Translations under genes and position numbers: made by a program
In this document: in pieces, positions 30,797 to 45,632 of the stretch
Layout of the letters: each line of letters opens with the position of its first letter
Numbering within the stretch: the first letter of the stretch is position 1
Assembly: GCA_004010535.1 (NCBI GenBank)
Contig: RQYE01000001.1
Location: forward strand, 62,001-126,000
Reading direction: 5' to 3'
Source of the DNA: Coriobacteriales bacterium OH1046
Lineage (GTDB): Bacteria; Actinomycetota; Coriobacteriia; Coriobacteriales; Atopobiaceae
DNA: 64,000 nucleotides
The notes under the pieces: generated by a model
What the model was told of the DNA's origin: nothing
The model's database searches: none
The model's input: the letters and a program-made list of their open reading frames with translations, nothing else

Positions 30797-31252
30797 ATGG
30801 CCAACGCGAAAGGCGCATCGAGCGGAAAGCCCCTCGACACGAGGCATATGCAGGAGAGGTTGAAAGGGGATCGCTTTCCGCAGGATGGGGAAGAGTTCCT
30901 AGATGACGATGTCCGATCGTTCTTCGATACGCTGCTCGATGAGACCGGCCAGAGGAAGAGCGAGATCATCCGCAAGGCGAACCTCCCCCGCGCGTACGGT
31001 TACCAGCTCATGGATGGACGGAGGCGGGGAAAGCGCGATTACTATCTCCTGATCGCGCTGGCCATGTCGTTGGATCTCACGATGACGCAGCGGATGCTGT
31101 CGGTCACGCAATGCGGCGCCCTGCACCCTCTCATCAAGCGCGATGCCGCCGTGATCTTCGCCATCAATCACCGGTACGACACCTTCAAAGCCTTCGAACT
31201 CATGTGCTCCCTCGGATTGCCCCCCTTGGATGACGGTGCGGACAACGGGTAG
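30797..31252 (+). CDS. XRE-like helix-turn-helix protein of the kinase/GT island
   Basis: 151 residues. The first 40 residues are polar. Residues about 45-105 show a lambda-repressor-like HTH pattern (GQRKSEIIRKANLPRAYGYQ, then DYYLLIALAMSLDLTMTQRM). The C-terminal part (LHPLIKRDAAVIFAINHRY) is helical. It ends eight bases before the first GTATGCTC palindrome and 134 bases before the lipoprotein gene. It is therefore a candidate regulator of the island, though no experiment links it. It could equally be a kinase-associated adaptor, since similar small proteins accompany kinases. Confidence 0.65.
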   Translation: MANAKGASSGKPLDTRHMQERLKGDRFPQDGEEFLDDDVRSFFDTLLDETGQRKSEIIRKANLPRAYGYQLMDGRRRGKRDYYLLIALAMSLDLTMTQRMLSVTQCGALHPLIKRDAAVIFAINHRYDTFKAFELMCSLGLPPLDDGADNG

Positions 31253-31260
31253 CGCAGTTT

Positions 31261-31277
31261 GTATGCTCCGAGCATAC
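31261..31277 (+). promoter_or_regulatory. Palindromic operator, copy A
   Basis: GTATGCTC-C-GAGCATAC, a perfect 17-bp palindrome. A possible -10 box TATGGT (31294-31299) starts 25 bases from the centre, five fewer than in the other copies. Gene 31386 follows. Confidence 0.7.
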
Positions 31278-31385
31278 CATGCCCTTCTTCTCGTATGGTA
31301 CCGTTCAACCGGACAGGCGGGGGGCAGCTTATGCGGGGATGGGAAGTCGGGGGAGAAGAGATCCGAGAGCCACACGGAGGTTGGG

Positions 31386-32666
31386 ATGACTGAACGGACA
31401 GATCCGGCACGGGCCATGCTCTCCCTGCTCATCATCCTTGCGCTGCTGTTCTCAGGCTGCGGCCGGAACGGGGCGATCGCCCCGTCGGCCGAGGAGCTAT
31501 CCGAGCTTTCGCCGGCAGCGGGCTTCCTTGCTGCAAAGGCGGAGGAAAGCGGGGGCTTCATAGCCGGTGCCGATCAAGGGGAGCGGGCTTCCGATTACGC
31601 CTATCTGTACGACAATGCGGTGGCTGCCATCGCGCTATCGTATGCGGGGGCGCAGCAGCATGCGGAGATGATCGCGGATGCGATCGTCTTCGCCCAAGCG
31701 CATGATCGCGCTTTCCAAGACGGGAGGCTTCGGAACGCCTATATCAGCGGCGATCCCAGAAGCGATTCCGGGCACTCCATCGCAGCCGGCAGGGTGACGG
31801 TGAGCCTGCCGGGTTTCTGGAAGGACGGGCGTTGGCAGGAGGATTCCTACACCGTCTCCACCTCCACGGGGAACATGGCTTGGACGATGCTGGCGCTGTG
31901 CGCGGTTGCGGAGCATGCATCGGATGGGAAGCGGGCGGAGTACCTCGAGGCGGCCCAGCTCGCAGCAGATTTCGTCCTCACCCTGGAGTCCGAGAGCGGC
32001 GGGTTCACCGCGGGCTACGAGGGCTGGGATGACGCGCAGGCCAAAGCCACCTATAAATCCACGGAGCACAACATCGACCTCTACTGCGCGTTCTCCGTCC
32101 TTGCGGATGCCGTTGCGGAGAGCGACCCGGCACAGGCCGCACTATACGACGATGCGGCGGAGCATGCCAAGGAATTCGTCCTCTCCATGTATGACGGGGA
32201 TCTTCACTGCTTCTATACGGGGACGGTATCGGATGGGGAGACGGTCAGCGATGGCGTCATCCCCTTGGATGCGAACACGCTCGCCATCCTCGCCCTCGGG
32301 AACGAGATGGGCGATGCGTACGATACGGTCTCCTTCATCGAGAAGCGTATGGCCGTGGGTGCAGGTTTCGATTTCAGCGCCGGCGATCTTGATGGCATCT
32401 GGAACGAGGGAACGGTGCAGATGGCGATCTGCTACGGCATAGTGGGAAGCGCCGGGAAGCGCGAGGCCGTCCTAGCGTATCTGGAGACGCAGGTTGCCGA
32501 GGACGGCAGCATTCCCGCTGCCGATAGGGATGGCGTCTCGACCGGCTTCGTCATCGTCGGGTCCGATGTGCTCTGGGAATACAACAACACGCAGAGCGTC
32601 AGCGCAACGGGCTGGCTCGCCTTCGCGCAGATGGGCAGGAATCCGTTCGAGCGGGTTTCGGGGTAG
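31386..32666 (+). CDS. Lipoprotein with (alpha/alpha)6-barrel glycosidase-like fold
   Basis: 426 residues from ATG 31386, GGAGG five bases upstream. The signal peptide ends in the lipobox LLFSGC, so it is a lipid-anchored exported protein. The mature part is a series of helical repeats: TSTGNMAWTMLALCAVAEH, EAAQLAADFVLTLES, STEHNIDLYCAFSVL, DANTLAILAL and SATGWLAFAQM. Such alternating motifs are typical of (alpha/alpha)6 toroids like GH8, GH9 or GH88-like enzymes. No specific family is certain. The next gene is a processive GT2, so it may trim or process that polymer outside the cell, as BcsZ does for cellulose (inference). Confidence 0.75.
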   Translation: MTERTDPARAMLSLLIILALLFSGCGRNGAIAPSAEELSELSPAAGFLAAKAEESGGFIAGADQGERASDYAYLYDNAVAAIALSYAGAQQHAEMIADAIVFAQAHDRAFQDGRLRNAYISGDPRSDSGHSIAAGRVTVSLPGFWKDGRWQEDSYTVSTSTGNMAWTMLALCAVAEHASDGKRAEYLEAAQLAADFVLTLESESGGFTAGYEGWDDAQAKATYKSTEHNIDLYCAFSVLADAVAESDPAQAALYDDAAEHAKEFVLSMYDGDLHCFYTGTVSDGETVSDGVIPLDANTLAILALGNEMGDAYDTVSFIEKRMAVGAGFDFSAGDLDGIWNEGTVQMAICYGIVGSAGKREAVLAYLETQVAEDGSIPAADRDGVSTGFVIVGSDVLWEYNNTQSVSATGWLAFAQMGRNPFERVSG

Positions 32667-32669
32667 GAA

Positions 32670-35600
32670 ATGATCGCGCGGGGAATACGTGCGCGGCAGA
32701 AGCGGAGGATCCCCGAAGCGCTGGGGAACCGGGTGTGCGGCGTCTGGCCCTATGTCCTCGCGCTCATCCTCGATGCCTTCGTGCACATCACGCTCTTCTT
32801 TGCCTACGGGGCGAGCCCGCAGATCCTCTTCCGCCTGCTCTTCTCGTCCATCTTCTTCGTCTACCCCCTGTATTATGTGGCGGACACCCTGTGGTCGCTC
32901 CGGCCGTCCGTCTACGGCATCCTATCGGGGAAGATCCCGATCAACCGGAAATACTACATGAATACGGTGCGGAAAGAGGTACTCCGGGGGGCGCTCCTGC
33001 CCGTCACGGTCAGCGTGCCCGTCTACCTGGAGGGCAACGAGGTCATCTTCAGGACGCTGCGGGAAAGCCTTGCGGCGGTCAAGCGCTACCGCGAGGTCAG
33101 CGGCAAGGATGCGAACGTGGTCGTATCGGATGACGGGCTGGCACCGCTCCTCGAGGGCAGGTGCACCGGGGAGCAGGCCGAACGTCTGGTCCGGATGTTG
33201 AAGAGGGATGCCTCTGCGTTGACGCGGCAGGAGAGGAAGGCGGCGGAGCGCATCCTGTTCTACCGGGAGCACGGGATCTCCTTCGTCGCCCGTCCGCAGG
33301 CAGGGCGCGCGGGGCTGTTCAAAAAGGGCTCCAATCTGAACCATACCCTGCGGCTCGGCAATGCGGTTTCCGGCGGAGCCCCGTTGGACAGCCTCCTGCG
33401 GGAGGACGGCCCCTTCGCGGGCGCATACGCGGAGGGGGATATCACCACCCATGAGATCATCCTGCTCCTCGATAAGGACTCGGGGGTGAAGGAGAAGATC
33501 ATCGAGGCCGTCATCCCGGAGTTCGCGACCGATGGGAAGCTCGCCTATGTGCAATGCGCCACCAACGCGGGCAACCTGCATGAGAACTACTATGCCTATG
33601 CCATCGGCCACCAGATCAACAATCTGTTCCATAACATCTGGCCGTGCAAAGCTCTGCAGGGCTTTTTCGTGCCGCTCGTCGGCCACAATGTATTCCTCCG
33701 CAAAAGCCATCTGGAGAAGAGCGGGCTTTGGTCGGAGAACCGGGTCTCCGAGGATTACGATAAGGCCCTCTGCTTCTACAGCATGGGCTATCACGGAAAA
33801 TATGCCCAGCTGAAGGGATTGGAATTTACCGAATACGCCAGCAGGACCTTCACCGAGGAAACCGGAAAGCAGCGCCGATACGCCTACGGCCTGTTCGAGA
33901 TGATCTTCGATGGGACCGTTGCGCCGGGCAAGATGCGCGGGTGCGACTCCTTCTTCATGGTGTTGTACTTCTTCTCCGTGGTCAACCAGGTGCTGCTGCT
34001 TCCCACCGTGCTTTTCGAGTGCTATTTCGGGAATATCCACCTTCTATGGGCGGGCTTCCTCATCTGCATGCTCTGCTTCATCATCCTTCCCCTCCTGAGA
34101 GGTTTCGCGGTGAGCCACCATCTTTCCGGTGAGGATGCGGGGAAGCTACCCTATACGCTCATCATCGCCATCTCATTCGTGGGGCACTCCTTCTCCTTCC
34201 TTGCGGGGGCGTGCCGGTATCTGGCGAACAAGCTGAGGGAGGATAGGACGCCCTTTCCCTCCACCAACGTTGATCAGCTGGGATACAGCTTCGCGGAGGG
34301 CATGGGGCTCCTCCTCCGCTATATTCGGAGGAACCCCCCGTTCCTTGCGATCGCCTTCCTCTGTCTCGACCGGGGTATCTTCCTGCTCACGCGAAGGGGT
34401 CTCGAGCCGGTGACGGCGTTCACCTACGGCTATATCCTGTTCTGTGCCGTGTTCGTCCCCGTCTTGCTGACGCCGCAGCTCTTCTCTGGTTTTAGGAGGA
34501 CATCTGCGATGGTGGGAAACGAGGAGGGGGGAGGCTTGGGACGAAGGAGAGGAACAGGTCGGGAGGGCACGCTGGTGCCGTCCCGCCCAGACGGCGGAGG
34601 AGGGATCCCCGTGCCCCTCATCATAGATGAGGAAGAGGCTGCCGGTCCGGCAGGCAGCGATGTGGAGCGTTTCCTAGCTGATTACCGGGATACGCTCCAA
34701 GCCTCGCTTCCGGAGGAGGATATGCCGGAGGAGCTGCTGTCGGCCTATGCCTTCGAAAGCTGTCTCAGAAAGGATTCGGATGGCAGGAAGGAGCTGTACC
34801 TGCTCCGCCGGAAAACGGATGGTGCAAGGGTGCTGCTCCGCATCACGAAGGATTATCCCGAGGAGGATGCCCTCGAGGAGGCGGAGCTGCTCCGGAGGCT
34901 CGACCATCCGGGCATCCCGAAGGCATATGCCTCCTACGAGCAGGGTGGGAAGCGCTACCTTATCAGGGAATACATCGAGGGCCGAACCCTGTACGAGATC
35001 GTGTCCACAGGCGGGACCCTCGGTGCACGGGATATCCTCGGTATCGCGTTGAAGCTCGCGGATATCCTGATCTACCTGCATGCGCAGATACCGCCGGTCA
35101 TCCATCGCGATATCAAGCCGCAGAATATCATCGTGGGGAGGGATGGGAGCATCCACCTCATCGATTTCGGCATCGCCCGAGTCCATAAGGAGGCGCGTCG
35201 TCAGGATACCTCCGTGATCCTGACGCTGGACTATGCCTCGCCGGAGCAGTACGGCTTCGAGCAGACGACGCCCCTGTCCGACATCTACTCCTTCGGCGTG
35301 GTTCTGTTGTTCCTGGCCACCGGGCATACGGCCCGCTCCGGCTTGGAAGCTCAGATCGTGAACAACCGTCTCAGGAACCTGATCGAGCAGTGCATCGTCT
35401 TCAGCCCGAAGGCGCGCATCCGAAGCGCGGAGGAGATCCGCGCGTACCTCCTGCATGGCTCGGGCCAGCATGCGCCGGAGCGGAAGCGGGGATTCGCGGT
35501 GGCGGGCGGGCTGCTTGCCGTCGCCGTCTGCCTGTCCGCGCTCTCGTACGGCCTGGGGTTCGCCATGGAGCGGGATGCCGCTGAGAAGCGCGGCTATGGA

Positions 35601-36506
35601 CAGGGCTATGAGGTGGGCTATACGGACGGCTACGATGCCGCACCCGTCTTCTATCGGGGCGATGCGGCCATCGCCGAAGGGGGCACCGATTTCGGGAATA
35701 TGACCGCTCCCTCAGGCTCGTTCGCGGCTTCGGGCGAGGGATCCATCTTCTATATCCAGGACGGGGATATCCGGCGCATGTCCGCAAACGGCACGGATCC
35801 GGAGCTTCTGGTACGAGATGGGCGTGCACGATCGTTGAGCTGCTATAACGGTTGGCTGTACTACTCCTCCGGCGACCGGGTCGTGCAGACCAACATCTAC
35901 ACCCTCGAGACCGATGTGCTGTACGGGCTTCCCGGCGAGCTCTATGTCGTAGGAGGGCGCTTCTATATCTGTGCGGAGGATGGGCTGTACCGGTTCGATG
36001 CGGGAACCGGGGAAACGACCGCTTTGGGCGATCTTGTCGGATGCGAAGCCCTGCAGATGGAAGGCGATAATCTGTATTTTATCGGCGGCGATGGCGGCCT
36101 GTATCGCAGCACCGTGTCCGGGGGGGATACGGCAAAGCTCGCAGGGGGGAGCTGCCTCAGCGCCTGCCTCGTGGGCAACGACCTGTTCTGCTCCATCGAT
36201 GGCGACGGCAGGGGAGAGCTGATCAGGATAAGCGGCGATACCGGCGAGACGACGGTGCTTTTGGAAGTGCGGGCGTCGATGCTCGCCGCCGCAGGCGGCG
36301 GTATCTGCTTTCTCGACGCATCGGATGGGACGATCTACCGGTGCTCCCTCGATGGCCGTATCCGCGAGCGGATATCCGGAAACCGCGCACGGGACTTCAA
36401 TATCGCGGGGAACTGGGTCTTCTATCACAATGAGGAAGACGCCGGCAGGCTATGGTGCGTCCGGCTCGATGGGGCGAACGACCATCCGGTGACGTCTGGG
36501 GGGTGA
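32670..36506 (+). CDS. Fusion of membrane GT2 glycosyltransferase, Ser/Thr protein kinase and DUF5050-like propeller
   Basis: 1278 residues with three parts. The GT2 part (about 1-600) has membrane helices at both ends and the processive-synthase motifs VSDDG, LLDKDSG (DxD), SEDYDKA and QRRYAYG. A Gly/Arg-rich linker follows. The kinase domain (about 680-930) has HRDIKPQN at about 812, DFG at about 833 and SPEQYG. The ATP-binding Lys position appears to be Arg (VLLR, about 724), and no glycine-rich loop is evident. A membrane helix (about 945-965) and a GYxxGY repeat lead to a six- to seven-bladed DUF5050-like sensor part (about 1010-1278) that would be outside the cell. It probably makes a surface polysaccharide under a receptor-kinase-like control. 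The start is four bases after the lipoprotein stop. Confidence 0.88.
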   Translation: MIARGIRARQKRRIPEALGNRVCGVWPYVLALILDAFVHITLFFAYGASPQILFRLLFSSIFFVYPLYYVADTLWSLRPSVYGILSGKIPINRKYYMNTVRKEVLRGALLPVTVSVPVYLEGNEVIFRTLRESLAAVKRYREVSGKDANVVVSDDGLAPLLEGRCTGEQAERLVRMLKRDASALTRQERKAAERILFYREHGISFVARPQAGRAGLFKKGSNLNHTLRLGNAVSGGAPLDSLLREDGPFAGAYAEGDITTHEIILLLDKDSGVKEKIIEAVIPEFATDGKLAYVQCATNAGNLHENYYAYAIGHQINNLFHNIWPCKALQGFFVPLVGHNVFLRKSHLEKSGLWSENRVSEDYDKALCFYSMGYHGKYAQLKGLEFTEYASRTFTEETGKQRRYAYGLFEMIFDGTVAPGKMRGCDSFFMVLYFFSVVNQVLLLPTVLFECYFGNIHLLWAGFLICMLCFIILPLLRGFAVSHHLSGEDAGKLPYTLIIAISFVGHSFSFLAGACRYLANKLREDRTPFPSTNVDQLGYSFAEGMGLLLRYIRRNPPFLAIAFLCLDRGIFLLTRRGLEPVTAFTYGYILFCAVFVPVLLTPQLFSGFRRTSAMVGNEEGGGLGRRRGTGREGTLVPSRPDGGGGIPVPLIIDEEEAAGPAGSDVERFLADYRDTLQASLPEEDMPEELLSAYAFESCLRKDSDGRKELYLLRRKTDGARVLLRITKDYPEEDALEEAELLRRLDHPGIPKAYASYEQGGKRYLIREYIEGRTLYEIVSTGGTLGARDILGIALKLADILIYLHAQIPPVIHRDIKPQNIIVGRDGSIHLIDFGIARVHKEARRQDTSVILTLDYASPEQYGFEQTTPLSDIYSFGVVLLFLATGHTARSGLEAQIVNNRLRNLIEQCIVFSPKARIRSAEEIRAYLLHGSGQHAPERKRGFAVAGGLLAVAVCLSALSYGLGFAMERDAAEKRGYGQGYEVGYTDGYDAAPVFYRGDAAIAEGGTDFGNMTAPSGSFAASGEGSIFYIQDGDIRRMSANGTDPELLVRDGRARSLSCYNGWLYYSSGDRVVQTNIYTLETDVLYGLPGELYVVGGRFYICAEDGLYRFDAGTGETTALGDLVGCEALQMEGDNLYFIGGDGGLYRSTVSGGDTAKLAGGSCLSACLVGNDLFCSIDGDGRGELIRISGDTGETTVLLEVRASMLAAAGGGICFLDASDGTIYRCSLDGRIRERISGNRARDFNIAGNWVFYHNEEDAGRLWCVRLDGANDHPVTSGG

Positions 36507-38035
36507 TGTCCGTGCAGGGAAAGCCGAGGTTCAAGTGGGGGGAGAGGGCGGAGCGCCCCATATCCGAGATCGTAGGCGATGATGGGGTCCTGCGCTCCAA
36601 CGATATCCTCCCTATCGTCGAGCAGCTGTGCCGTCTGCTTGGGAACCGGGATTCGGAGGATGCTGGTGGGCGGCGGGTATGCATCCATCCGGACACCGTC
36701 ATGGTGAGCGTGGACGGGGATGTCCGGCTGGAGGATCGGAGCCTCCCTCTCTCCGTCATGGATGCCTATCTTCCGCCTGAGCTGGGTCCGGCTGGTCTGG
36801 TCGCGCCTGCCGCGTGGGTATACGCGGTGGGCATGCTCATGCTGTACATGGCTACGGGGCAGGAACGGAAGGCAGAGGAGGATGCCGTTATAAGCAACCG
36901 CCCCCTTCTCGCGCTGATCGAGCGTTGCACGGCCTTCGATCCGGAGGAGCGCTTCCGGGATATCGAAGATCTGCTGGAGGCCATCCGACACGAGAAGAGG
37001 GCATGGAGGAAGGCGCTCTTTGCATCTCTTGCAACGGCCGGGACCTTCCTGATCGCGGGTTCCCTCTTCTTCTTGTGGCAGGAGGGGGCATCGCGCGGCA
37101 GTGCGGTTGGAGAGGCGGATGCCTTCGGATCGGGTTATGCCGATGGCTACGAGCAGGGCTTCTCCGATGCTCCGGGAATCGGCCTCTCCGGAGCGCCTTT
37201 CGACCCTCGGAACGGGAATCTCTCGGGGAACATGGCCGCAGAGGGTGGCGCGATTGCAGCTTGGAGCGGGGACGATGTGTTCTTCCTGCTGGACGGAAGC
37301 ATCCTCCGGATGGACCCCTATACAGCCGAGGCGCAGGTCCTTGCGTCGGATGCCGGGGCCTACGGCCTGCACTATCATGACGGCTGGCTCTATTGCTGCA
37401 CGGGTGAGGAGATCGTCCGCGTCGATCCCGCAACAGCGGAGAAGGAGGTCTTCTGCGACTCTCGCGGAGGACAACTCTACATATTCGATGACGGCTTCTA
37501 TCTCTATGACAGCGTCGGCACCGGATACCTCTACCGGATCGATCCCGGCACACGGGCGATGACGCAGCTCAACGGGGCGATGGAATACCGCTGCCTGAAC
37601 GTCGTGGATGGCAGGCTCTATTATATCGACCCCAACAGGGGCGGCAGCATCTTCAGCTGCGATCTCGACGGCGGGAATGCAGGCCTTATCAGCAGCGGTT
37701 CCTATGAGAGCTTCTGCGTCTACCGTGACAGGATCTACGCTGCCACCGGAGACGGGCTTATCCGCATGGACCTGAACGGGGGTAGCCCGGAGATGCTGTC
37801 GGTGCTGCCCGCGTATTCCCCCAACGCATCGGACGGCGGCATCTTCTATATCTCCGGAGGCGGCAGGACGCTGGAGTGGATGTCCTTGGACGGCAGAACA
37901 CGCTATACTGTCGTGCCCACCCGCACCGATTCCTTCAACGTCGCCGGCCAGTGGATCTTCTACCGCAACGGGGATGATGGCGGTGCGCTGTGGCGTGTCC
38001 GCATAAGCGGCGCGGATAACGCACGGATCTCATGA
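36506..38035 (+). CDS. Membrane pseudokinase with DUF5050-like extracellular domain
   Basis: 509 residues from ATG 36506, overlapping the previous stop by one base. The N-terminal 165 residues look like a kinase C-lobe. HPDTVMVSVDGDVRLED aligns with the HRDxKPxN...DFG region but lacks the catalytic Asp and DFG. DAYLPPEL matches the APE region, WVYAVGMLMLYMATG the following helix, and DPEERFRDIEDLLEAI the end of a kinase domain. A membrane helix (about 170-190) and a GYADGYEQGF repeat follow, then a DUF5050-like propeller resembling that of the fusion kinase. It is likely a regulatory partner or receptor subunit rather than an enzyme. Confidence 0.75.
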   Translation: MSVQGKPRFKWGERAERPISEIVGDDGVLRSNDILPIVEQLCRLLGNRDSEDAGGRRVCIHPDTVMVSVDGDVRLEDRSLPLSVMDAYLPPELGPAGLVAPAAWVYAVGMLMLYMATGQERKAEEDAVISNRPLLALIERCTAFDPEERFRDIEDLLEAIRHEKRAWRKALFASLATAGTFLIAGSLFFLWQEGASRGSAVGEADAFGSGYADGYEQGFSDAPGIGLSGAPFDPRNGNLSGNMAAEGGAIAAWSGDDVFFLLDGSILRMDPYTAEAQVLASDAGAYGLHYHDGWLYCCTGEEIVRVDPATAEKEVFCDSRGGQLYIFDDGFYLYDSVGTGYLYRIDPGTRAMTQLNGAMEYRCLNVVDGRLYYIDPNRGGSIFSCDLDGGNAGLISSGSYESFCVYRDRIYAATGDGLIRMDLNGGSPEMLSVLPAYSPNASDGGIFYISGGGRTLEWMSLDGRTRYTVVPTRTDSFNVAGQWIFYRNGDDGGALWRVRISGADNARIS

Positions 38036-38138: not shown

Positions 38139-38192
38139 GGCGCGGTTTGTATGCGCGGAGCATACAAACCGCGCCTCCTTTCATCCTATGCT
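38139..38192 (+). promoter_or_regulatory. Palindromic activator-type promoter, copy B
   Basis: 16-bp perfect arms (38139-38154 and 38160-38175, inner part GTATGC..GCATAC) form a very strong dyad. TATGCT (38187-38192) starts 30 bases from its centre (38157). There is no -35 box. The sequence after the -10 box, GTG...AGGATC, is shared with copies C and D. Gene 38231 follows. Confidence 0.75.
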
Positions 38193-38230: not shown

Positions 38231-38839
38231 ATGCGCAAGCTCATCGATCTTATCGGCAGGATCATCCCGGTCTTTATCGGGTGGCTCATCTGGAGGAAGA
38301 CGGGCAACATCATTTTCGGTGCGATCGTCGCCACGGTTATGGAGGCGCTTGCGGCACCGTTGCTGAAGGAACTCGGGCTCCTGCTCGTCAAGAAGCAGGA
38401 TATCCAGGCGCTCGATCCCTTTCCCGCCGAGCAGGGCAAGGGTCTGCGTATTTTCATCGCGCGGAACAGGAACAGCGTCCTGTCGCCGGAGGATATCGTG
38501 GCCGAGATGCGGGGGAGGCTTTCGGATAACGGGGAATTCAGGCATCTGTATCAGACGGTGGTGGCGGAGCATCTTCCGATCCAGCGCTGCCTGTGGAATT
38601 TCGATACCAGCGATGACGGCACGCTAGCCAAGGCGCTCCGGCAATGGAGGACGATGGGGGATGTCTCGCTGACGGCTGGCGATATGAAGGATGGCTATTT
38701 CCATGAGAAGCAGGCGGAAAACGGCGAATACGCCGCGCTGTTCTGCTTCTCGCAGGATATCCCGATAACCCCGCTTCCGGAGGAAGGGCAGGCGCTGTCT
38801 GGGGAAGCGCACGATGCGCGCAATCAAGACCCCAGCTGA
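38231..38839 (+). CDS. Hypothetical membrane-anchored protein
   Basis: 202 residues with an AAAGGAGA box upstream. One or two N-terminal hydrophobic helices (IGRIIPVFIGWLIW, IIFGAIVATVMEALAAPLL) are followed by a soluble domain with LVKKQDIQALDPFPAEQ and a C-terminal acidic tail. I do not recognise the family. It is the first gene behind promoter copy B. Confidence 0.7.
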   Translation: MRKLIDLIGRIIPVFIGWLIWRKTGNIIFGAIVATVMEALAAPLLKELGLLLVKKQDIQALDPFPAEQGKGLRIFIARNRNSVLSPEDIVAEMRGRLSDNGEFRHLYQTVVAEHLPIQRCLWNFDTSDDGTLAKALRQWRTMGDVSLTAGDMKDGYFHEKQAENGEYAALFCFSQDIPITPLPEEGQALSGEAHDARNQDPS

Positions 38840-38997
38840 GGACATCCTCGGCCATGCGCTGGCTGCAGGCAGGCGTTTCCCGATCAACGCAGCTTGCCGG
38901 CATCGAGGGATGGATGTGAGCCCGACCGCGAGCGCCGCCGCGTCCAAGGTGGCGCGGCGGGGGTTTCCGTAGCAGTGGCGGGCGGCGGGACCCTTTT
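38840..38997. other. Flank of the invertible segment, no gene
   Basis: Its last 60 bases (TCCAAGG..GGCGCG..CGGGG) match the same-orientation flank at about 44060-44106. Confidence 0.45.
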
Positions 38998-39149
38998 TGC
39001 CACGGAGGGCACTTATTCCGCAGGATTCGGGTGCGGTTCGCCCATCGGGGCCATACACGATCTCCGCCGAGCTGGGCAAACGCGGGCCAAGTTCCCGCCC
39101 GATGGCGGTTCGGCACCGAAAAAGCGCGGAATACGTGCTCTTTGTGGCA
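38998..39149 (+). repeat. Invertible-looking segment, copy 1 (26-bp inverted repeats, 100-bp core)
   Basis: Left arm 38998-39023 (starts TGCCACGGAGGGCACTTATT) and right arm 39124-39149 match as inverted repeats at 20 of 26 positions. The 100-bp core (39024-39123) is about 80% identical to the reverse complement of the core at 44133-44232. The outer flanks of both copies match in the same orientation. The segment lies about 105 bases upstream of promoter copy C. Confidence 0.8.
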
Positions 39150-39254
39150 GATTCGGGAGGTTTCCCTGCCAGCGCATGCCGCCTCTGCTTGAAGCTGCCC
39201 GCAGCGCCCAGTCCGTGCGCCTCCATACCCTTGGTTTAGGGAGAAGCTTCGCAT

Positions 39255-39298
39255 GTATGCTCAGAGCATACAAGCTGCGGGATCTTTCAGCTTATGCT
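39255..39298 (+). promoter_or_regulatory. Palindromic activator-type promoter, copy C
   Basis: GTATGCTC-A-GAGCATAC (39255-39271, centre 39263) and TATGCT (39293-39298), 30 bases from the centre. The sequence after the -10 box contains GTGGCTAGGATC. The gene at 39386 follows. Confidence 0.8.
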
Positions 39299-39385
39299 GT
39301 GGCTAGGATCGCGGGAGACAGGAGAAGGGGTCTCGGGCGATCGCCTGGGACGCGAGGGATGCGTGCAGCAGAAGGGTGAGACGCG

Positions 39386-39687
39386 ATGAAACCGACGACA
39401 AGGGCATTCCCGATCACCCTCATGATGGTAGTCTGCCTCTCCTCGTTTCCAGGATGTGCGGAGAAGATCGAAGCCGTCGAGGGGATCATCGCCGTATCCG
39501 GCACGATCGGCAAACCTGCGCAGGGCGAGCTCGTATCCGTGCCTGTTGATGCGCCTCGCTCCCCTCCGGCGACAGCGGGATCAGCGCGTCTATCGATACG
39601 GGCGAGGACGTGCCCTGTTCTGGCGAGTATACCGCCCGCTTCTACATCGATGGCCGCCTTGTGAACGAGACGACGGGAAGCACGTAG
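39386..39687 (+). pseudogene. Small lipoprotein gene with probable frameshift
   Basis: From ATG 39386 the frame gives a signal peptide with lipobox SSFPGC and KIEAVEGIIAVSGTIGKPAQ, then turns into low-quality sequence and stops at 39664. From 39565 another frame continues with SGDSGISASIDTGEDVPCSG and EYTARFYIDGRLVNETTGST up to TAG at 39685-39687, which reads like a real extracellular domain end. One missing base near the CTCCCCTCC run (39559-39567) would reconcile both. It may be a true lesion or a sequencing error. Confidence 0.6.
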
Positions 39688-39729
39688 GGGAGAAGCCGCA
39701 GAAGATCTGCGGCGGAAACGGGGGCAGCT

Positions 39730-40518
39730 ATGGATGGTGCTCTACGCACAGTGGTTTTCCAAATCCAGGGCAGGAGGCCGGATCAGGCGGAGCTCGGGAG
39801 GCTGTCGAGCCTGCCGTACGGAAGGACCTTGCCGGGTGGAGCGGAGGTCAAGGAGGCGGTCAAGTGGTTCCTCATCGGGACGATCGCCGGCGTTGCCATG
39901 TTCTTGTTCGGACGCTGGGTAATAGAGAGGTTTGCCGGCCCCGGTGTGCTGTTCTTCGGATACGGCGCAGCGTATCTCGCGGCGCCCGCCTCTGTGATCT
40001 TCGGCTTCTCCAGCCTCGGCAAGCTGCTGCGCTCGGCACAGAAGACCAAACCCGCCGATGCGTTCCGTTGGGCGTGGATGGTGTCGATTCTGGGAGATGA
40101 TGAGGTTGGGGAGCGCTTCGGCAAGCTGCCGTATGCCGTGTCCACGATGCGACGGCTCCTTCCAAAGGATATGGCGTATGACGAATCGGCCTTTGGACGC
40201 TACGTCGATGCCCTTCGTTTTTCGATGGCCGCAGCCGCCGATGAATCCGCCTCCGCGCCGAGGGAAGGCGGCTGGAGCGAATCCGGCCCGGATAAGACGT
40301 GCGCGATCACCCGTGACGAGGAGCTGCTTCCCAGTCTGCGGGAGCTGTCGGCGGTCATCACCTATACGGACCGGTTGTCGCGCACAGATGACAGGAACCG
40401 GTCGGAAAGCATGACGGCAGCGAAGCTGGAGCTCCATATCACGCAATGCTACATCCGATCTGGGAAGTACTGGTTCCCATACGACCATATGCCGGCGTAT
40501 CGGAGGGCGGGGCAATGA
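39730..40518 (+). CDS. Hypothetical protein with two membrane helices
   Basis: 262 residues. A polar N-terminus is followed by two hydrophobic helices (KWFLIGTIAGVAMFLFG; VLFFGYGAAYLAAPASVIFG) and a large soluble part with DAFRWAWMVSILGDDEVGE and TAAKLELHITQCYIRSGKYW. I do not recognise the family. It lies in the same transcription unit as the disrupted lipoprotein gene (promoter copy C). Confidence 0.7.
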   Translation: MDGALRTVVFQIQGRRPDQAELGRLSSLPYGRTLPGGAEVKEAVKWFLIGTIAGVAMFLFGRWVIERFAGPGVLFFGYGAAYLAAPASVIFGFSSLGKLLRSAQKTKPADAFRWAWMVSILGDDEVGERFGKLPYAVSTMRRLLPKDMAYDESAFGRYVDALRFSMAAAADESASAPREGGWSESGPDKTCAITRDEELLPSLRELSAVITYTDRLSRTDDRNRSESMTAAKLELHITQCYIRSGKYWFPYDHMPAYRRAGQ

Positions 40519-40624
40519 CTCCGTGCGGGTTCCGTTGCGGGCGATTCCCCGCCAACGGTCCCCCAACCATCATCGTCTCTCATGTAGTGCTGGGCATTCG
40601 AAGCTGAAGGAGGATGAGGTAGAC

Positions 40625-41185
40625 ATGGTATCGCGCACAAGGGAGGATCGTTGTGGGAAGAGGACGCTTTCCCTGCTGGCGGTTCTGGCCACGGCGCTGC
40701 TCTTCATTCTGGCAGGCTGCGGGGTGAAAGGGGAGGGCGCGGATGTGGACTGGCTCTCCTATCGTCTGACCATAGCCGAGCTGAGGGAGATGGAGCACAC
40801 GGAGAGTTTCCAGGATGTCGTCTTTTCCTCAGGTAGCGGAACCCTTCTGATCGGGCCGCTGAGCGGGAGGGAGGTGTTCTCCGATTCCTTCAGCACCCAG
40901 CTTGCCTCGCCACCTTCCGGGAGCAGGTATGTCGTAGCCCGGCTGCTGAGCGCTGGGGAAGGGATCAGCGAAGAGGATATTACAGAGCAAACTGTGGGGA
41001 CAGTCCATCTCAGGGCTTCCTCGGGGGATCGTTTCGAGCCGCTCCTTTACATCATATGGGGTATCGAGTTCGATTCCACTTCTGGTTTATCCACGAACGA
41101 GGAGCAGGAGGGTTTCTGCCTTCTGTTCGCCGTGCCTGAAGACATCGCCTTGCAGGAGCTGGGCGTAGAGGTATCCGACGGCTAA
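40625..41185 (+). CDS. Hypothetical lipoprotein
   Basis: 186 residues from ATG 40625 with an AGGAGG box. An N-terminal signal has lipobox LFILAGC. The mature part has a DUF-like beta-rich pattern (FQDVVFSSGSGTLLIGPLSG; YVVARLLSAGE). No known family is recognised. It is probably co-transcribed with the preceding gene; promoter copy D lies 150 bases after it. Confidence 0.72.
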   Translation: MVSRTREDRCGKRTLSLLAVLATALLFILAGCGVKGEGADVDWLSYRLTIAELREMEHTESFQDVVFSSGSGTLLIGPLSGREVFSDSFSTQLASPPSGSRYVVARLLSAGEGISEEDITEQTVGTVHLRASSGDRFEPLLYIIWGIEFDSTSGLSTNEEQEGFCLLFAVPEDIALQELGVEVSDG

Positions 41186-41338
41186 CCGGTCGGGAGGCGC
41201 GAGCGGTTTATCGGACTTCGGGAATCGCGCATCGGGCATTCCGATCTCTGCCCATCGAAGATGCATGCGGAGGCGGCGGAGCGGATTCTCGGGCCCGCCG
41301 CCTTTCGCTATTCCCGGTCTCGCAAAAAACTCCGGCTT

Positions 41339-41382
41339 GTATGCTCCGCGCATACAAGCTGCGCTTCCTTTCATCTTATGCT
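41339..41382 (+). promoter_or_regulatory. Palindromic activator-type promoter, copy D
   Basis: GTATGCtCCGcGCATAC (41339-41355, centre 41347), extended to GCTTGTATGC/GCATACAAGC arms. TATGCT (41377-41382) starts 30 bases from the centre. GTGGGTGAGGATC follows. It serves the gene at 41469. Confidence 0.8.
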
Positions 41383-41468
41383 GTGGGTGAGGATCACGGC
41401 CCGATGCGGAACGTACGGGAGGGCTCGTGCGGTGGGGTGTCGGGCTTTCTCATCGATAGGAGGAAACC

Positions 41469-42251
41469 ATGATCAAGGCGTATAAGGAGTACTGGAAGGG
41501 ATACATCGACTTCACGGGCAGGACGAGCGTCGGAGGCTACTGGTGGGCGGTGCTGGCGCACTTCCTCGTGACCCTCCCCCTTTCCTTCCTTGTGGGCCTG
41601 GTGGGCGGCTTGAGCAACAATCAACATGTTGTCGTTTCCTTCCTGACCGCCTTTTGGCTGATCTGCTTGCCGCCCTCCTTGGCCATCGCCGTGCGGCGGC
41701 TGCGCGATGCGGGCCGATCCTGGGCGAATCTGTTCTGGGCATTTCTGCCGATCGCAGGTGCCATCGTGCTCATCGTGATGCTCTGCAGGCCGACAAGTTC
41801 CGAAACCTCCTACCGGGCGATCGACCAAGGGGCGGTGAACGGCGTGCCCACCTACCAAGCCTACCCACCGCAGCAGGCCGCATTGCCCGCAGACGGTGGA
41901 CAGGCGGCACAGGCATATGCCCCGGCGGCTGCACGCGCCGTGTCGGCGGAACGACCCGCGCATCTCCCCGGAGCCTTCCGCAAGCTCTCCTTCCGCTCTC
42001 TGAAGCTCTACGCGGGCTCCGGCGTCTGCGATGTGTGCAACAAGCCTTTGTCCGGGCAGAGCGCATATATCGTGCCCAATCCCGTCTTCTACGGTTCGCC
42101 GGAATGGCGCGAGCATTTCCGGCGGGTGAGTGGCGCGATGTTCGCCCGTATGGGTGCCGATGTCGATCGGCAGATCGAGATGATGCAGAGGCGCGATTCC
42201 TCGGCGGGCAGCGCCGTCTGCACGGACTGCATCCACATGTTCGCGGAGTAA
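41469..42251 (+). CDS. DUF805 membrane protein with C-terminal zinc-ribbon-like domain
   Basis: 260 residues with an AGGAGG box. The N-terminal half is a DUF805 domain: YWKGYIDFTGRTSVGGYWW, then two or three helices and RLRDAGRSWANLF. A Pro/Ala linker leads to a C-terminal domain with CDVCNKPLSG and CTDC, which could bind zinc. DUF805 alone is common; the fusion with a Cys4 region is less so. Function unknown. Confidence 0.78.
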   Translation: MIKAYKEYWKGYIDFTGRTSVGGYWWAVLAHFLVTLPLSFLVGLVGGLSNNQHVVVSFLTAFWLICLPPSLAIAVRRLRDAGRSWANLFWAFLPIAGAIVLIVMLCRPTSSETSYRAIDQGAVNGVPTYQAYPPQQAALPADGGQAAQAYAPAAARAVSAERPAHLPGAFRKLSFRSLKLYAGSGVCDVCNKPLSGQSAYIVPNPVFYGSPEWREHFRRVSGAMFARMGADVDRQIEMMQRRDSSAGSAVCTDCIHMFAE

Positions 42252-42304
42252 CGCGGGACAGGAGCCGAACGTGCCGCGCGCTAAGCTTAGAAGGAGGAGA
42301 TCTC

Positions 42305-43687
42305 ATGGATGACAATCGCTCAAGCTCGCCGGTGGGAATGCTGGGACCCCAGCGCATTCCTGCGGCGATCCTGCTGTTGTGGGGTAATCTGTTCGGCTTT
42401 GTATCCGTCGCTTACGGAGGGGCGCTCCCATACATGGATGTGTTCTGGTGGCTGTCGCTCTTCATCCGACTCTCCCTCGTGATCCTGCTCTTCATCGGGA
42501 GGAAGAGCGTGGGGATCCTGATCCCGGTTGCGCTTTATCCGCTGCTGTTTGTCGTTGAGCTATTTGCTGACTTCAGTATCGAGAGTCTGCTGTACACCGC
42601 GATCTGGGCCGTCCTATGCCTGATCGCCATGGCCTCCGTGATCCCGGAGCTCGGGCTCAAAAAACCTTTGCTCAAAGGTCTTGCGTACCTGCCCGCCGGG
42701 CTGAATCTGGCGGTGGGCGCGCTCTTCTTCATCTCTGATCTGGCAAGCGAATGGTTTACTCCTGCGGACGTCCTTTATGGCATGAATTACGTGATCTGGC
42801 CGCTGAGTCTCCTGTTTTTGGCGAAGGCTCTGGTGGAGACCTCCTCCGAGGGTGCCTCCCTGCCCATCCAGACCGGCGGCTCGGTCTACCGAACCTATTC
42901 CCAGCCGGTCTTCAGCCAGCAGCCGGTTTCGGCTCCCGCTCCCGTTCCTGCCGCCGCTGTCCAGAGAACGGCTCCGGGCATCCTTTTGGTCCGCTTCAGC
43001 ATCGACCGGCTGAACGAGTTGAGCGGCCCTTATGGCTTCCAATCCGGGAGGCTGATCGGTCGGGCCGTCCCCGCGTCGCTTCTGGAGGGGATGGTCGTGA
43101 GCGATGGCGATTCAGCGGCGACGCTTGCCGGGCGCGAGTATGTTTGCATCGTCGCCATCGCGTCTGGCGATAGCTCCATCCTGAAAGAGAAGATAGAACC
43201 GCTGATCTTGGCAAGCGGGGAGATCCGGGCTTGCGGCGCTATTCCGCTCACGCAGCTCGTCGGCAGCACAAGCGAGCCTCTGGTGATGGATGGCGTCATA
43301 CGGAACGGCGCGATCGAAGGCCCCGGCGGATGGTGCGCGAACGGCCTGGCGAGCGTGTGGAAGGAGGCCGCAGCGCAGCAGCAGCGTCCTGCTCCCGCAG
43401 CCGATAAGCCGCAGCAGGCCGCCCCCGCCCCTGCCGCCCCTGCGGTCGATAAGAAGGAGATCTACCTCCAGAAGAGCGTGGAGCGCCTGCTCGCGCTGTA
43501 CCGGCAGGTTCCGGGCGGCTTCCCGCGGGACGAGGCGGTCGACGTCCGGGCCATCGGGATGCTGCTCGACGAGGCGGGCGGCATGGACCTGATGCGGCAA
43601 GCGCATGGTCTCTTCGCGCGGCAGAACCCCGGCATGGCGCGGAACCTCGAGAGCGTGTGGGACGGTATCGGGAACTGGATGGGGTGA
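42305..43687 (+). CDS. Hypothetical multi-pass membrane protein
   Basis: 460 residues from ATG 42305, with an AAGGAGGAG box. About five N-terminal hydrophobic helices (up to about 180), then a Pro/Ala/Gln-rich linker, a beta-rich cytoplasmic domain (GILLVRFSIDRLNELSG) and a second linker. The C-terminal domain is helical (YLQKSVERLLALYRQVPGG). No family is recognised. It follows the DUF805 gene by 50 bases and likely shares its promoter. Confidence 0.75.
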   Translation: MDDNRSSSPVGMLGPQRIPAAILLLWGNLFGFVSVAYGGALPYMDVFWWLSLFIRLSLVILLFIGRKSVGILIPVALYPLLFVVELFADFSIESLLYTAIWAVLCLIAMASVIPELGLKKPLLKGLAYLPAGLNLAVGALFFISDLASEWFTPADVLYGMNYVIWPLSLLFLAKALVETSSEGASLPIQTGGSVYRTYSQPVFSQQPVSAPAPVPAAAVQRTAPGILLVRFSIDRLNELSGPYGFQSGRLIGRAVPASLLEGMVVSDGDSAATLAGREYVCIVAIASGDSSILKEKIEPLILASGEIRACGAIPLTQLVGSTSEPLVMDGVIRNGAIEGPGGWCANGLASVWKEAAAQQQRPAPAADKPQQAAPAPAAPAVDKKEIYLQKSVERLLALYRQVPGGFPRDEAVDVRAIGMLLDEAGGMDLMRQAHGLFARQNPGMARNLESVWDGIGNWMG

Positions 43688-43757
43688 TCGCAGATATGCC
43701 CTGGAGGAGGATCGCGATGATGGGCGGCCACTGCAGCGCATTGCGGGAGGTTGGGGC

Positions 43758-43985
43758 ATGAAGCGCCATATCGTCAAGGACGTCATCATCGCGTCTCCGC
43801 CCCTCACGCTGTTCTTCTCCTATGCCTTGCCAGCGCGGGGGTTGTTACTCGCAAGCAAGGCTACGTACAATATGCTGCCAGCTTCCCTGTTCAACCTCAT
43901 CAGTCGTGATCAATGGGGCGTACGGCGCGATGCTCCGGGTGTCGCTCGTGAGCTTTATCAAGGCCAGGAGAAGGAAGTCGGCTAG
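43758..43985 (+). CDS. Small hypothetical protein, possibly frameshifted
   Basis: 75 residues from ATG 43758, with a GGGAGG box seven bases upstream. It has one hydrophobic stretch (ASPPLTLFFSYALPARGLLLAS). Near the end another frame gives INGAYGAMLRVSLVSFIKAR, which looks more like a natural membrane-protein tail, so a frameshift around 43905 is possible. Confidence 0.4.
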   Translation: MKRHIVKDVIIASPPLTLFFSYALPARGLLLASKATYNMLPASLFNLISRDQWGVRRDAPGVARELYQGQEKEVG

Positions 43986-44106
43986 TTGAGGTGTTGAGAT
44001 GCGAAGCACGCGATTATGTGCGGCTTTCTTTATCAAGCCTGTCCAGCAGGCGTCGCCCTATCCAAGGCGGCGCGACGGGGCTTATGGCACGCGATCGGGC
44101 TCTTTC

Positions 44107-44258
44107 TGCCACGAAGGGCACTTATTCCGCAGCTTTTTGGTGGCAAAGCGCCATGGGGCGGAGACTTGACTCGCGTTTGCCCAGCTCAACGGAGGCTGCG
44201 TATGGCCCCGATGGACGAATCGCACCCGAATCCTGCGGAATAAGTGCCCTTCGTGGCA
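44107..44258 (+). repeat. Invertible-looking segment, copy 2 (perfect 26-bp inverted repeats)
   Basis: Arms 44107-44132 and 44233-44258 are perfect 26-bp inverted repeats (outer ends TGCCACGAAGGG and CCCTTCGTGGCA). The core is exactly 100 bp, as in copy 1, but in the opposite orientation. The flanks on both sides match those of copy 1 in the same orientation, and promoter copy E follows about 90 bases later. Confidence 0.85.
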
Positions 44259-44350
44259 GATCCGGGCAATTTCCGTGACAGCGTATGCTGTCCTCTGCTT
44301 GAAACCGATCCGCCGCGCCCAGCCCCGGCCCTCCAAGAAACCCCGCGTTT

Positions 44351-44394
44351 GTATGCTCCGAGCATACAAGCTGCGGAATCTTTCGGCCTATGCT
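44351..44394 (+). promoter_or_regulatory. Palindromic activator-type promoter, copy E
   Basis: GTATGCTC-C-GAGCATAC (44351-44367, centre 44359) identical to copy A. TATGCT (44389-44394) starts 30 bases from the centre. The gene at 44438 follows. Confidence 0.8.
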
Positions 44395-44437
44395 GTGCAC
44401 GAGGTGTTTTCGCAGAGCGTGCAGAAAGGGGATCGTC

Positions 44438-44947
44438 ATGATGGATACGGTTGCGACATTGAAGGGGCTGAGATGCCCGCAATGCGGCTCGGAGGACTTG
44501 GACGTGAATGGAAAGGCCGGGAGCATGGGCAAGGAGATCGCCGGCGTCTTTCTCGGCGGCGCGATCGCCAATTTGGCGGTAAGCAACAGCGCTTCCAAGA
44601 ACGTAGAGACCGTTCCGCTCACTTATACCTGCAAGAACTGCAAGCACAAATTCCAGTCGTTCCCGCTTGCGGCGCAGCAGGAGGACATCCTCGCCACCCC
44701 CTGCACCATCAGCTTCACCCGCGTCTCCAGTTTCGTGGGGGCCTTGGTGGCGCAGGTCGTCTACCTGAACGGGGTCAACTGCGGGGCCGTGAAGAACGGG
44801 AACACGATCACCCTGCAGACCAGCAATCGCTGGAACACCATGTTCGTCACGGATCAGTACGGGGTGGCCTTCAAGAGCGTCTACCGCTTCGAGGCGGTCC
44901 CGGGTGGCACCGTAGCCGTGAGGTTCAAGCGGAAGTTCGTGGAGTGA
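44438..44947 (+). CDS. Zinc-ribbon protein of unknown function
   Basis: 169 residues from ATG 44438; ATG 44441 is equally possible. CPQCGSEDLDV and CKNCKHKF form two zinc knuckles around a Gly/Ala-rich stretch (KEIAGVFLGGAIANLAVS). The C-terminal half is a small beta-rich domain (TISFTRVSSFVGALVAQVVY; YRFEAVPGGTVAVRFKRKF). It may be an adaptor or a stress-type protein; the family is not recognised. First gene behind promoter copy E. Confidence 0.72.
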   Translation: MMDTVATLKGLRCPQCGSEDLDVNGKAGSMGKEIAGVFLGGAIANLAVSNSASKNVETVPLTYTCKNCKHKFQSFPLAAQQEDILATPCTISFTRVSSFVGALVAQVVYLNGVNCGAVKNGNTITLQTSNRWNTMFVTDQYGVAFKSVYRFEAVPGGTVAVRFKRKFVE

Positions 44948-45044
44948 GGGGGAGGGGTCCCGCCCGCCGCCCGCCCAGCGGTGCAGGTGGCGGGACGCTT
45001 GGAACAGGGCAACGAAGAAACATAAAAGCAAGGAGGAGTGTATC

Positions 45045-45632
45045 GTGGACAAGGACAAGTGCATCAAATGCGGAGAAAAAGACGCCTTGAAAGGCTATTC
45101 TTTTCTGACTGTGAATGTGAATTCCAGCTCCATCACCTCCGGACGGACTACCACGACTACCACCACTGAGTCCCTTACCGGGATGGCCTCCTGTGCCGTC
45201 TGCAGCGACTGCATCCGCAAGAAGCGGATCAGCTATGCCATCGTCTGCGGGGTCGGTGCACTGATCGGCGTCTTCGTCGCGGTGATCCTCTTCGGGGGTT
45301 TCTTCATCGGAAGTAGCTACTATAATGATCACTTCCCAGGGGTCGTGCTCTTCGCGCTAGCAGCAGGCGCAGTGGCCGCAATCATCGCCTTGATTGTGAC
45401 GCTGCAGAAGGAGGACCCCTTCGTCGCAGCCATGCTCAAAAAAGCGGCGGACAAGAAGAGGGATTCCAGCGCCGCACACCTGAATTACGTGCCCACGGAT
45501 TCGTCACTCTATGTGGACAAGAAGACCGACACCCTGGAATTGGCTGTCTTCACGCGTAAGACCGGGCTGAGGACCGCCTTGGCTGCCACCCTCTTCGTCA
45601 TCGTCTTGGCCGGGGTCAGCGACGCAAAGTAG
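45045..45632 (+). CDS. Zinc-ribbon membrane protein
   Basis: 195 residues from GTG 45045 with an AGGAGGAG box. CIKCGEKDALKGY and CAVCSDCIRKK bracket a Thr-rich loop and give a Cys4 zinc site. Two hydrophobic helices (YAIVCGVGALIGVFVAVILFGG; VVLFALAAGAVAAIIALIVTL shortened here) and a cytoplasmic tail follow, with a last hydrophobic stretch near the C-terminus. It is probably the second gene of the copy E unit and resembles its neighbour in having a zinc site. Confidence 0.72.
   Translation: MDKDKCIKCGEKDALKGYSFLTVNVNSSSITSGRTTTTTTTESLTGMASCAVCSDCIRKKRISYAIVCGVGALIGVFVAVILFGGFFIGSSYYNDHFPGVVLFALAAGAVAAIIALIVTLQKEDPFVAAMLKKAADKKRDSSAAHLNYVPTDSSLYVDKKTDTLELAVFTRKTGLRTALAATLFVIVLAGVSDAK

Follow-up and report, generated by a model that had tools for sequence, protein, structure and literature searches.

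What is made by a gene in which a sugar-polymer synthase, a protein kinase and a putative sensor follow one another in one open reading frame (ORF)? The question is raised by positions 32670 to 36506 of a 64,000-nucleotide stretch of DNA (the window) from Coriobacteriales bacterium OH1046 (contig RQYE01000001.1, positions 62,001 to 126,000). The 1278-amino-acid (aa) frame is a genuine fusion of a family 2 glycosyltransferase (GT2), a Ser/Thr kinase and a DUF5050 propeller, and looks like a real, little-studied control of a surface sugar polymer. Most likely, and with moderate confidence, it is a signal-gated membrane polysaccharide synthase that is controlled in cis by its kinase. The fusion and its parts were placed as follows.

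32670..36506, + strand, fusion of GT2 synthase, linker, Ser/Thr kinase, transmembrane (TM) helix and DUF5050 propeller, 1278 aa
32670..34490, + strand, GT2 part, residues 1-607, BcsA-like fold
34491..34649, + strand, variable linker, residues 608-660, in frame in every copy
34650..35474, + strand, kinase module, residues 661-935, assigned by Pfam and motifs
35490..35546, + strand, transmembrane helix, residues 941-959
35700..36503, + strand, putative propeller sensor, residues 1011-1278, DUF5050 with a profile match to 3s25

The frame is uninterrupted from ATG to TGA (1278 codons). The Pfam scan placed Glyco_trans_2_3 at residues 263-472 (E 3e-21), Pkinase at 731-908 (E 8e-32) and DUF5050 at 1098-1276 (E 5e-22), which is the order, including the DUF5050 repeats, that an earlier note on this DNA had read from the letters. 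No PilZ domain was found in that scan, the kinase coming after the GT2 part instead, and the NCBIfam scan of the fusion returned remote kinase models only, far below their cut-offs. A congener (G001, JAKPQM010000060.1) has a complete frame too, with 79% identity to the window fusion. Against the congener, the ratio of nonsynonymous to synonymous substitution rates (dN/dS) was 0.20 for the GT2 part, 0.14 for the kinase and 0.34 for the propeller, meaning that all three are under selection, and about 1.1 for the linker (residues 608-660, 38% identity). The linker differs in sequence and length among the homologs, and its insertions and deletions preserve the frame in all copies. Such a weakly constrained tether is expected of a real fusion, and a missed stop would be unlikely to last in 18 assemblies; the linker is therefore real, and the doubt about an error between 34440 and 34680 was removed.

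The GT2 part was scanned against 84,980 species genomes with exact peptide patterns, so that the locus counts are lower bounds, and 25 loci were obtained. Seventeen of them hold an uninterrupted GT2-kinase-propeller frame of 1261-1296 aa with identical domain order, and the architecture is thus present in 18 genomes including that of the window. The fusion reaches the contig end in one further locus and is broken by frame faults in two (L056, L060), as it is in G146, which came from the genome search. The remaining five homologs (L052, L055, L057, L059, L062) are GT2 genes without any kinase in the same operon. As a separate observation, the GT2 frame is broken in copies from metagenome-assembled genomes (MAGs; L029, L052, L060, L062), which assembly error, decay or on/off switching could explain.

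The GT2 part has the features of a membrane GT2 polysaccharide synthase: Glyco_trans_2_3 and the motifs DD (154-155), DKD (268-270) and SED (360-362), with D154/D155, D268xD270 and E361D362 conserved. These three motifs were read correctly in the earlier note; the fourth (KQRRYAYG, 400-407) is (K)QxRYxYG rather than QxxRW. The replacement of QxxRW by (K)QxRY is found in all homologs, and Q401, R403 and Y404 are invariant. A PDB search with the single GT2 sequence gave no useful solved relative, and a profile of 24 GT2 homologs matched bacterial BcsA (E 1e-4). The AlphaFold model (mean predicted local distance difference test score, pLDDT, 78) also matched BcsA best, with a Foldseek E of 3e-16 and, by VIA-align, Z 20-23 over 416-470 residues (root-mean-square deviation 4.1-4.7), at an identity of at most about 15-17%; other GT2 synthases (hyaluronan, plant cellulose) gave Z 16-18. 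Model residues 15-607 were aligned with residues 62-579 of R. sphaeroides BcsA, in which the PilZ domain begins at about residue 580. The match ends approximately where PilZ begins, and hence the kinase takes the place of PilZ in the chain.

By analogy with BcsA, both hydrophobic segments at the N-terminus and four of the five at the C-terminus would be TM segments, and helix 493-522 an interface helix; the kinase would then be cytosolic and the propeller extracellular. F529 and T532 of a gating-loop-like FPST (529-532) are invariant. Cellulose synthases have an FxVTxK gating loop motif (PMC5567048), and the FxxT of the fusion, at the corresponding position, may serve as a gating loop. The earlier note had called the GT2 processive, a term for which the modelled fold is the backing.

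The kinase module has HRDIKPQN (812-819), DFG (832-834) and SPEQ, as the earlier note had seen for the first two, and across the fusions there is little or no variation in HRD, KPQN, DFG, SPEQ, the activation segment and the alpha-C Glu. With HRDxKxxN, DFG, the activation segment and the alpha-C Glu, it agrees with Hanks-type Ser/Thr kinases, and it departs from them in the N-lobe, which has no glycine-rich loop (GxGxxG) and in which the lysine expected at VAIK is Arg in 14 of the 20 fusions (R724 in the window) and kept in 6. The C-lobe motifs support a predicted kinase activity, with this caveat for the N-lobe. K707 in the beta1-beta2 region is invariant; as a guess, it could be the ATP-contacting lysine, as in WNK kinases. 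The propeller profile matched PDB 3s25, a 7-bladed propeller (E 1e-12), and the order kinase, TM helix and propeller, with the propeller probably outside, is that of PknD-type receptors. The reading of the earlier note, a receptor-type kinase in cis with a polysaccharide synthase, is supported by this layout joined to a BcsA-like synthase. In the tree, the nearest non-fused kinases are receptor kinases with leucine-rich repeats (LRR): about 2 kb downstream of the operon, four Clostridiaceae loci (L041:15240-16973, with counterparts in L042, L046 and L064) encode a receptor kinase of the same subfamily that has these repeats in place of the propeller.

Three genes stand with the fusion in the order helix-turn-helix (HTH) gene, lipoprotein, fusion, pseudokinase, and this order is kept.

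30797..31252, + strand, HTH-type protein of 151 aa, predicted operon activator
31386..32666, + strand, lipoprotein with lipobox LFSGC and an (alpha/alpha)6-barrel glycosidase/epimerase-type fold
36506..38035, + strand, paralog with degenerate kinase C-lobe, TM helix and DUF5050

The pseudokinase paralog, whose start overlaps the fusion stop by one base (TGATG), has no N-lobe, HRD or DFG and is conserved in the fused loci. The lipoprotein gene ends 3 bp upstream of the fusion and accompanies fused and unfused GT2s alike. A direct PDB search with the single lipoprotein sequence gave nothing useful; its model (pLDDT 81) folds as an (alpha/alpha)6 barrel, for which dextran dextrinase scored Z 30.8, MmpH 30.0 and epimerases about 28. 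As a fold, the barrel agrees with glycoside hydrolase family 15 (GH15), but epimerases and other (alpha/alpha)-barrel glycosidases match it too, and the protein reached no Pfam family at the curated cut-off. The HTH protein had no match in Pfam, NCBIfam or PDB. Its gene was found in 21 of 22 fused loci and in none of the five kinase-less loci; the only fused locus that lacks it (L060) has no lipoprotein gene or GT2 N-terminus either. Where the GT2 has no kinase, the HTH gene and the pseudokinase are likewise absent. Members of the HTH family adjoin Ser/Thr kinases in most sampled genomes of the order. A two-gene cassette of this family and an atypical Ser/Thr kinase is common there (L085/L087 (G000:C19), L006-L019, L067-L084), in some cases as HTH-kinase-HTH.

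A palindrome with the consensus TGT[A/C]TGC-N5-GCA[T/G]ACA was first found by repeat search. Its copies in the window are as follows.

31260..31278, palindrome TGTATGCTCCGAGCATACC, 8 bp past the HTH stop, putative operator for the operon promoter, TACCGT 20 bp downstream
38148..38166, copy 2, past the pseudokinase gene, upstream of the gene at 38231, TATGCT 20 bp downstream
39254..39272, copy 3, TATGCT 20 bp downstream
41338..41356, copy 4, upstream of the DUF805 gene at 41469, TATGCT 20 bp downstream
44350..44368, copy 5, upstream of the gene at 44390, TATGCT 20 bp downstream

The core is exact in all five copies, and shuffled sequences averaged 0.19 matches even at two mismatches. The whole genome has seven sites at no more than one mismatch, six of them within this cluster. 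The fused loci have 45 sites at 13 or more of the 14 consensus positions; the reversed-pattern control had none, nor did the five kinase-less loci with the same consensus. TAnnnT lies exactly 20 bp downstream in 40 of the 45 sites, and no other offset has more than 9. With this spacing the palindrome is centred near -42 from a start site, where a class II activator would sit, and the half-sites vary symmetrically (A/C in one, T/G in the other), which fits a DNA-binding dimer. From its sequence, the palindrome with its -10 box has the form of an activator-type promoter, and since HTH gene, kinase and palindrome co-occur, the HTH protein is probably the binder. A generic promoter and terminator scan gave no more hits than shuffles did.

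Sites precede the lipoprotein gene, follow the pseudokinase gene and also stand in front of neighbour genes of varying content, and the palindrome with its -10 box at the fixed 20-bp spacing marks a small regulon. A remote site with TATACT at +20 is present in both G000 (C13:101628) and G001 (C25:143089), where it precedes a conserved proline-rich TM protein of 426-438 aa (L088:2335-3615). The genes downstream in the window (38231-45632; DUF805, small membrane proteins) share palindrome promoters and differ between genomes; zinc-ribbon membrane, TPR or SLH proteins are found at the matching places in Bacillota. The same region holds a 154-nt imperfect inverted repeat (38998-39151 and 44105-44258; 84% complementary) with 4953 nt between its arms.

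How might these parts work together? The GT2 part would make, and probably extrude, a polymer as BcsA does. An envelope signal, which may be the polymer itself, would be sensed by the propeller outside the cell, and the receptor-type Ser/Thr kinase in the PilZ place would then act in cis to change the activity of the synthase to which it is joined. The pseudokinase-propeller paralog of the same operon may be a partner or a decoy, and the lipoprotein with its glycosidase-type fold may trim or edit the product outside. The HTH activator would drive the operon and nearby genes from the palindrome promoters, and the kinase probably signals to it as well. The host encodes one GGDEF protein, so an input by cyclic di-GMP (c-di-GMP) may still be possible. 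Three points weigh against such a synthase under kinase control. Some GT2 homologs (L055, L057, L059) exist without the kinase. Catalysis is perhaps weak or lost, since 14 of 20 fusions have Arg for the VAIK lysine and the glycine-rich loop is missing. The GT2 departs from the canonical QxxRW, which leaves its processivity and product unsettled.

The second of these points agrees with the best-surviving alternative, in which the kinase domain is a nucleotide- or partner-binding allosteric module that, with the pseudokinase, relays the propeller signal by conformation only. In its favour, the adjoining paralog has already lost its N-lobe, HRD and DFG. Against it, HRD, KPQN and DFG stay nearly invariant in the fusions, as do the activation segment and the alpha-C Glu; six fusions keep Lys at VAIK, and K707 might, speculatively, serve as in WNK. 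This alternative was judged rather unlikely.

Less probable again, although not negligible, is a kinase that acts mainly in trans and phosphorylates the HTH protein to switch the regulon, the GT2 fusion serving to co-locate both or to sense the state of the synthase. The HTH-kinase neighbourhoods of the order, and the joint gain and loss of HTH gene, kinase and palindrome, would fit this. Separate genes would suffice for it, however, and 18 genomes have retained the kinase joined to the C-terminal end of the GT2.

There is only a slim chance that the GT2 is non-processive and, regulated by the kinase, adds sugars to a lipid or another polymer. The (K)QxRY of all homologs could be taken in this way, as could the neighbours scanned, among which no BcsB-like partner was seen; against it stand the whole-length BcsA match including the TM region, the conserved gating-loop-like FxxT and the operon partner with a glycosidase-type fold. 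The joining of separate genes by a sequencing or assembly error has practically no probability left: frames do break in some MAG copies (L029, L052, L056, L060, L062), but 17 independent in-frame homologs, the complete congener frame included, and in-frame linker changes across independent assemblies had already refuted it.

The signal-gated synthase with cis control is thus retained as the preferred explanation. A tentative extension of it, possible at best, is a closed loop in one protein: the propeller would read the extruded polymer, or how the lipoprotein trims it, and the cis kinase would replace c-di-GMP and PilZ and also set the HTH protein for the palindrome regulon, the package having spread between phyla.

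The carriers are about 20 gut, rumen and digester bacteria. The congener record is labelled Actinomycetota and every other named fused locus Bacillota, with guanine-plus-cytosine contents of 26 to 65% in the latter; in the window's own family, the GT2 is present in 3 of 140 genomes. Together these labels, contents and counts point to horizontal transfer of the whole package. In the GT2 tree, the unfused L057 and L062 branch outside the fused group, and L055 and L059 sit with fused members in an unresolved fork. The simplest history would be a merger of two cassettes, HTH-kinase and lipoprotein-GT2, in which the GT2 was fused to the kinase. A distant unfused GT2 relative (L030:11488-13731, G172; 39-40% identity, FxxT positions in common) adjoins genes for RNA pseudouridine synthase, SPase II and tRNA synthetase. 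The host also carries the actinobacterial PknA-FhaA-PP2C-RodA/PbpA-PknB cluster, in which RodA and PbpA are encoded in one 947-aa ORF (L086:8537-11380). Three other readings were tried and rejected, an anti-phage system and an origin from phage or plasmid: PADLOC matches were generic kinase models, viral contigs held no relative, and plasmid matches were generic kinases only.

Each part is of a known kind; the combination is not known from the open literature searched. The fusion resembles BcsA in its GT2 membrane synthase fold, the DD, DxD and ED motifs, the gating-loop-like FxxT, a C-terminal cytosolic regulatory domain (by predicted topology) directly after the last TM pair and a glycosidase-type operon partner. 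It differs from BcsA in having KQxRY for QxxRW, only two N-terminal TM segments and no BcsB among the neighbours, and from both BcsA and BgsA, a PilZ-less variant of the BcsA-type synthase, in having kinase, TM helix and propeller instead of PilZ or C-BgsA. In BcsA and BgsA, C-terminal domains control the glycosyltransferase (PMC11470070, PMC5567048), and RiGT2 is inactive once its PilZ is removed (PMC10374906). PknD of Mycobacterium tuberculosis likewise has a kinase, a single TM helix and an extracellular beta-propeller (PMC2877116); unlike PknD, the protein described here is fused to a synthase and has a DUF5050 propeller, an atypical N-lobe and a pseudokinase paralog in the operon. In B. 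subtilis EpsB-EpsE, a kinase controls a co-encoded glycosyltransferase (PMC4262085). EpsA/EpsB-EpsE is similar in that a membrane kinase module and a glycosyltransferase come from one operon, with the kinase setting polysaccharide output, but its kinase is a BY-type tyrosine kinase and its proteins are separate, whereas the fusion has a Hanks-type kinase in cis. The main text of two surveys of prokaryotic kinase architectures (PMC1262709, PMC2877116) mentions no glycosyltransferase fusion. The earlier note knew of no characterised protein of this order, and no kinase-GT2 fusion was found in the open literature, a coverage that left out most subscription journals.

In the known processive synthases of this fold, control comes either from c-di-GMP, acting on PilZ or PilZ-like tails, or from kinases that are separate proteins. 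Gating of a GT2 synthase by a receptor kinase at the PilZ position would, if true, add a third mode, and with sensor, kinase and synthase in one chain, the coupling of kinase to synthase would be directly testable in a single purified protein. The pairing of the HTH protein with Ser/Thr kinases in most sampled genomes of the order is a little-explored signalling module, and the promoter code of palindrome, 20 bp and -10 box gives a simple handle on the timing of polymer synthesis in gut, rumen and digester anaerobes.

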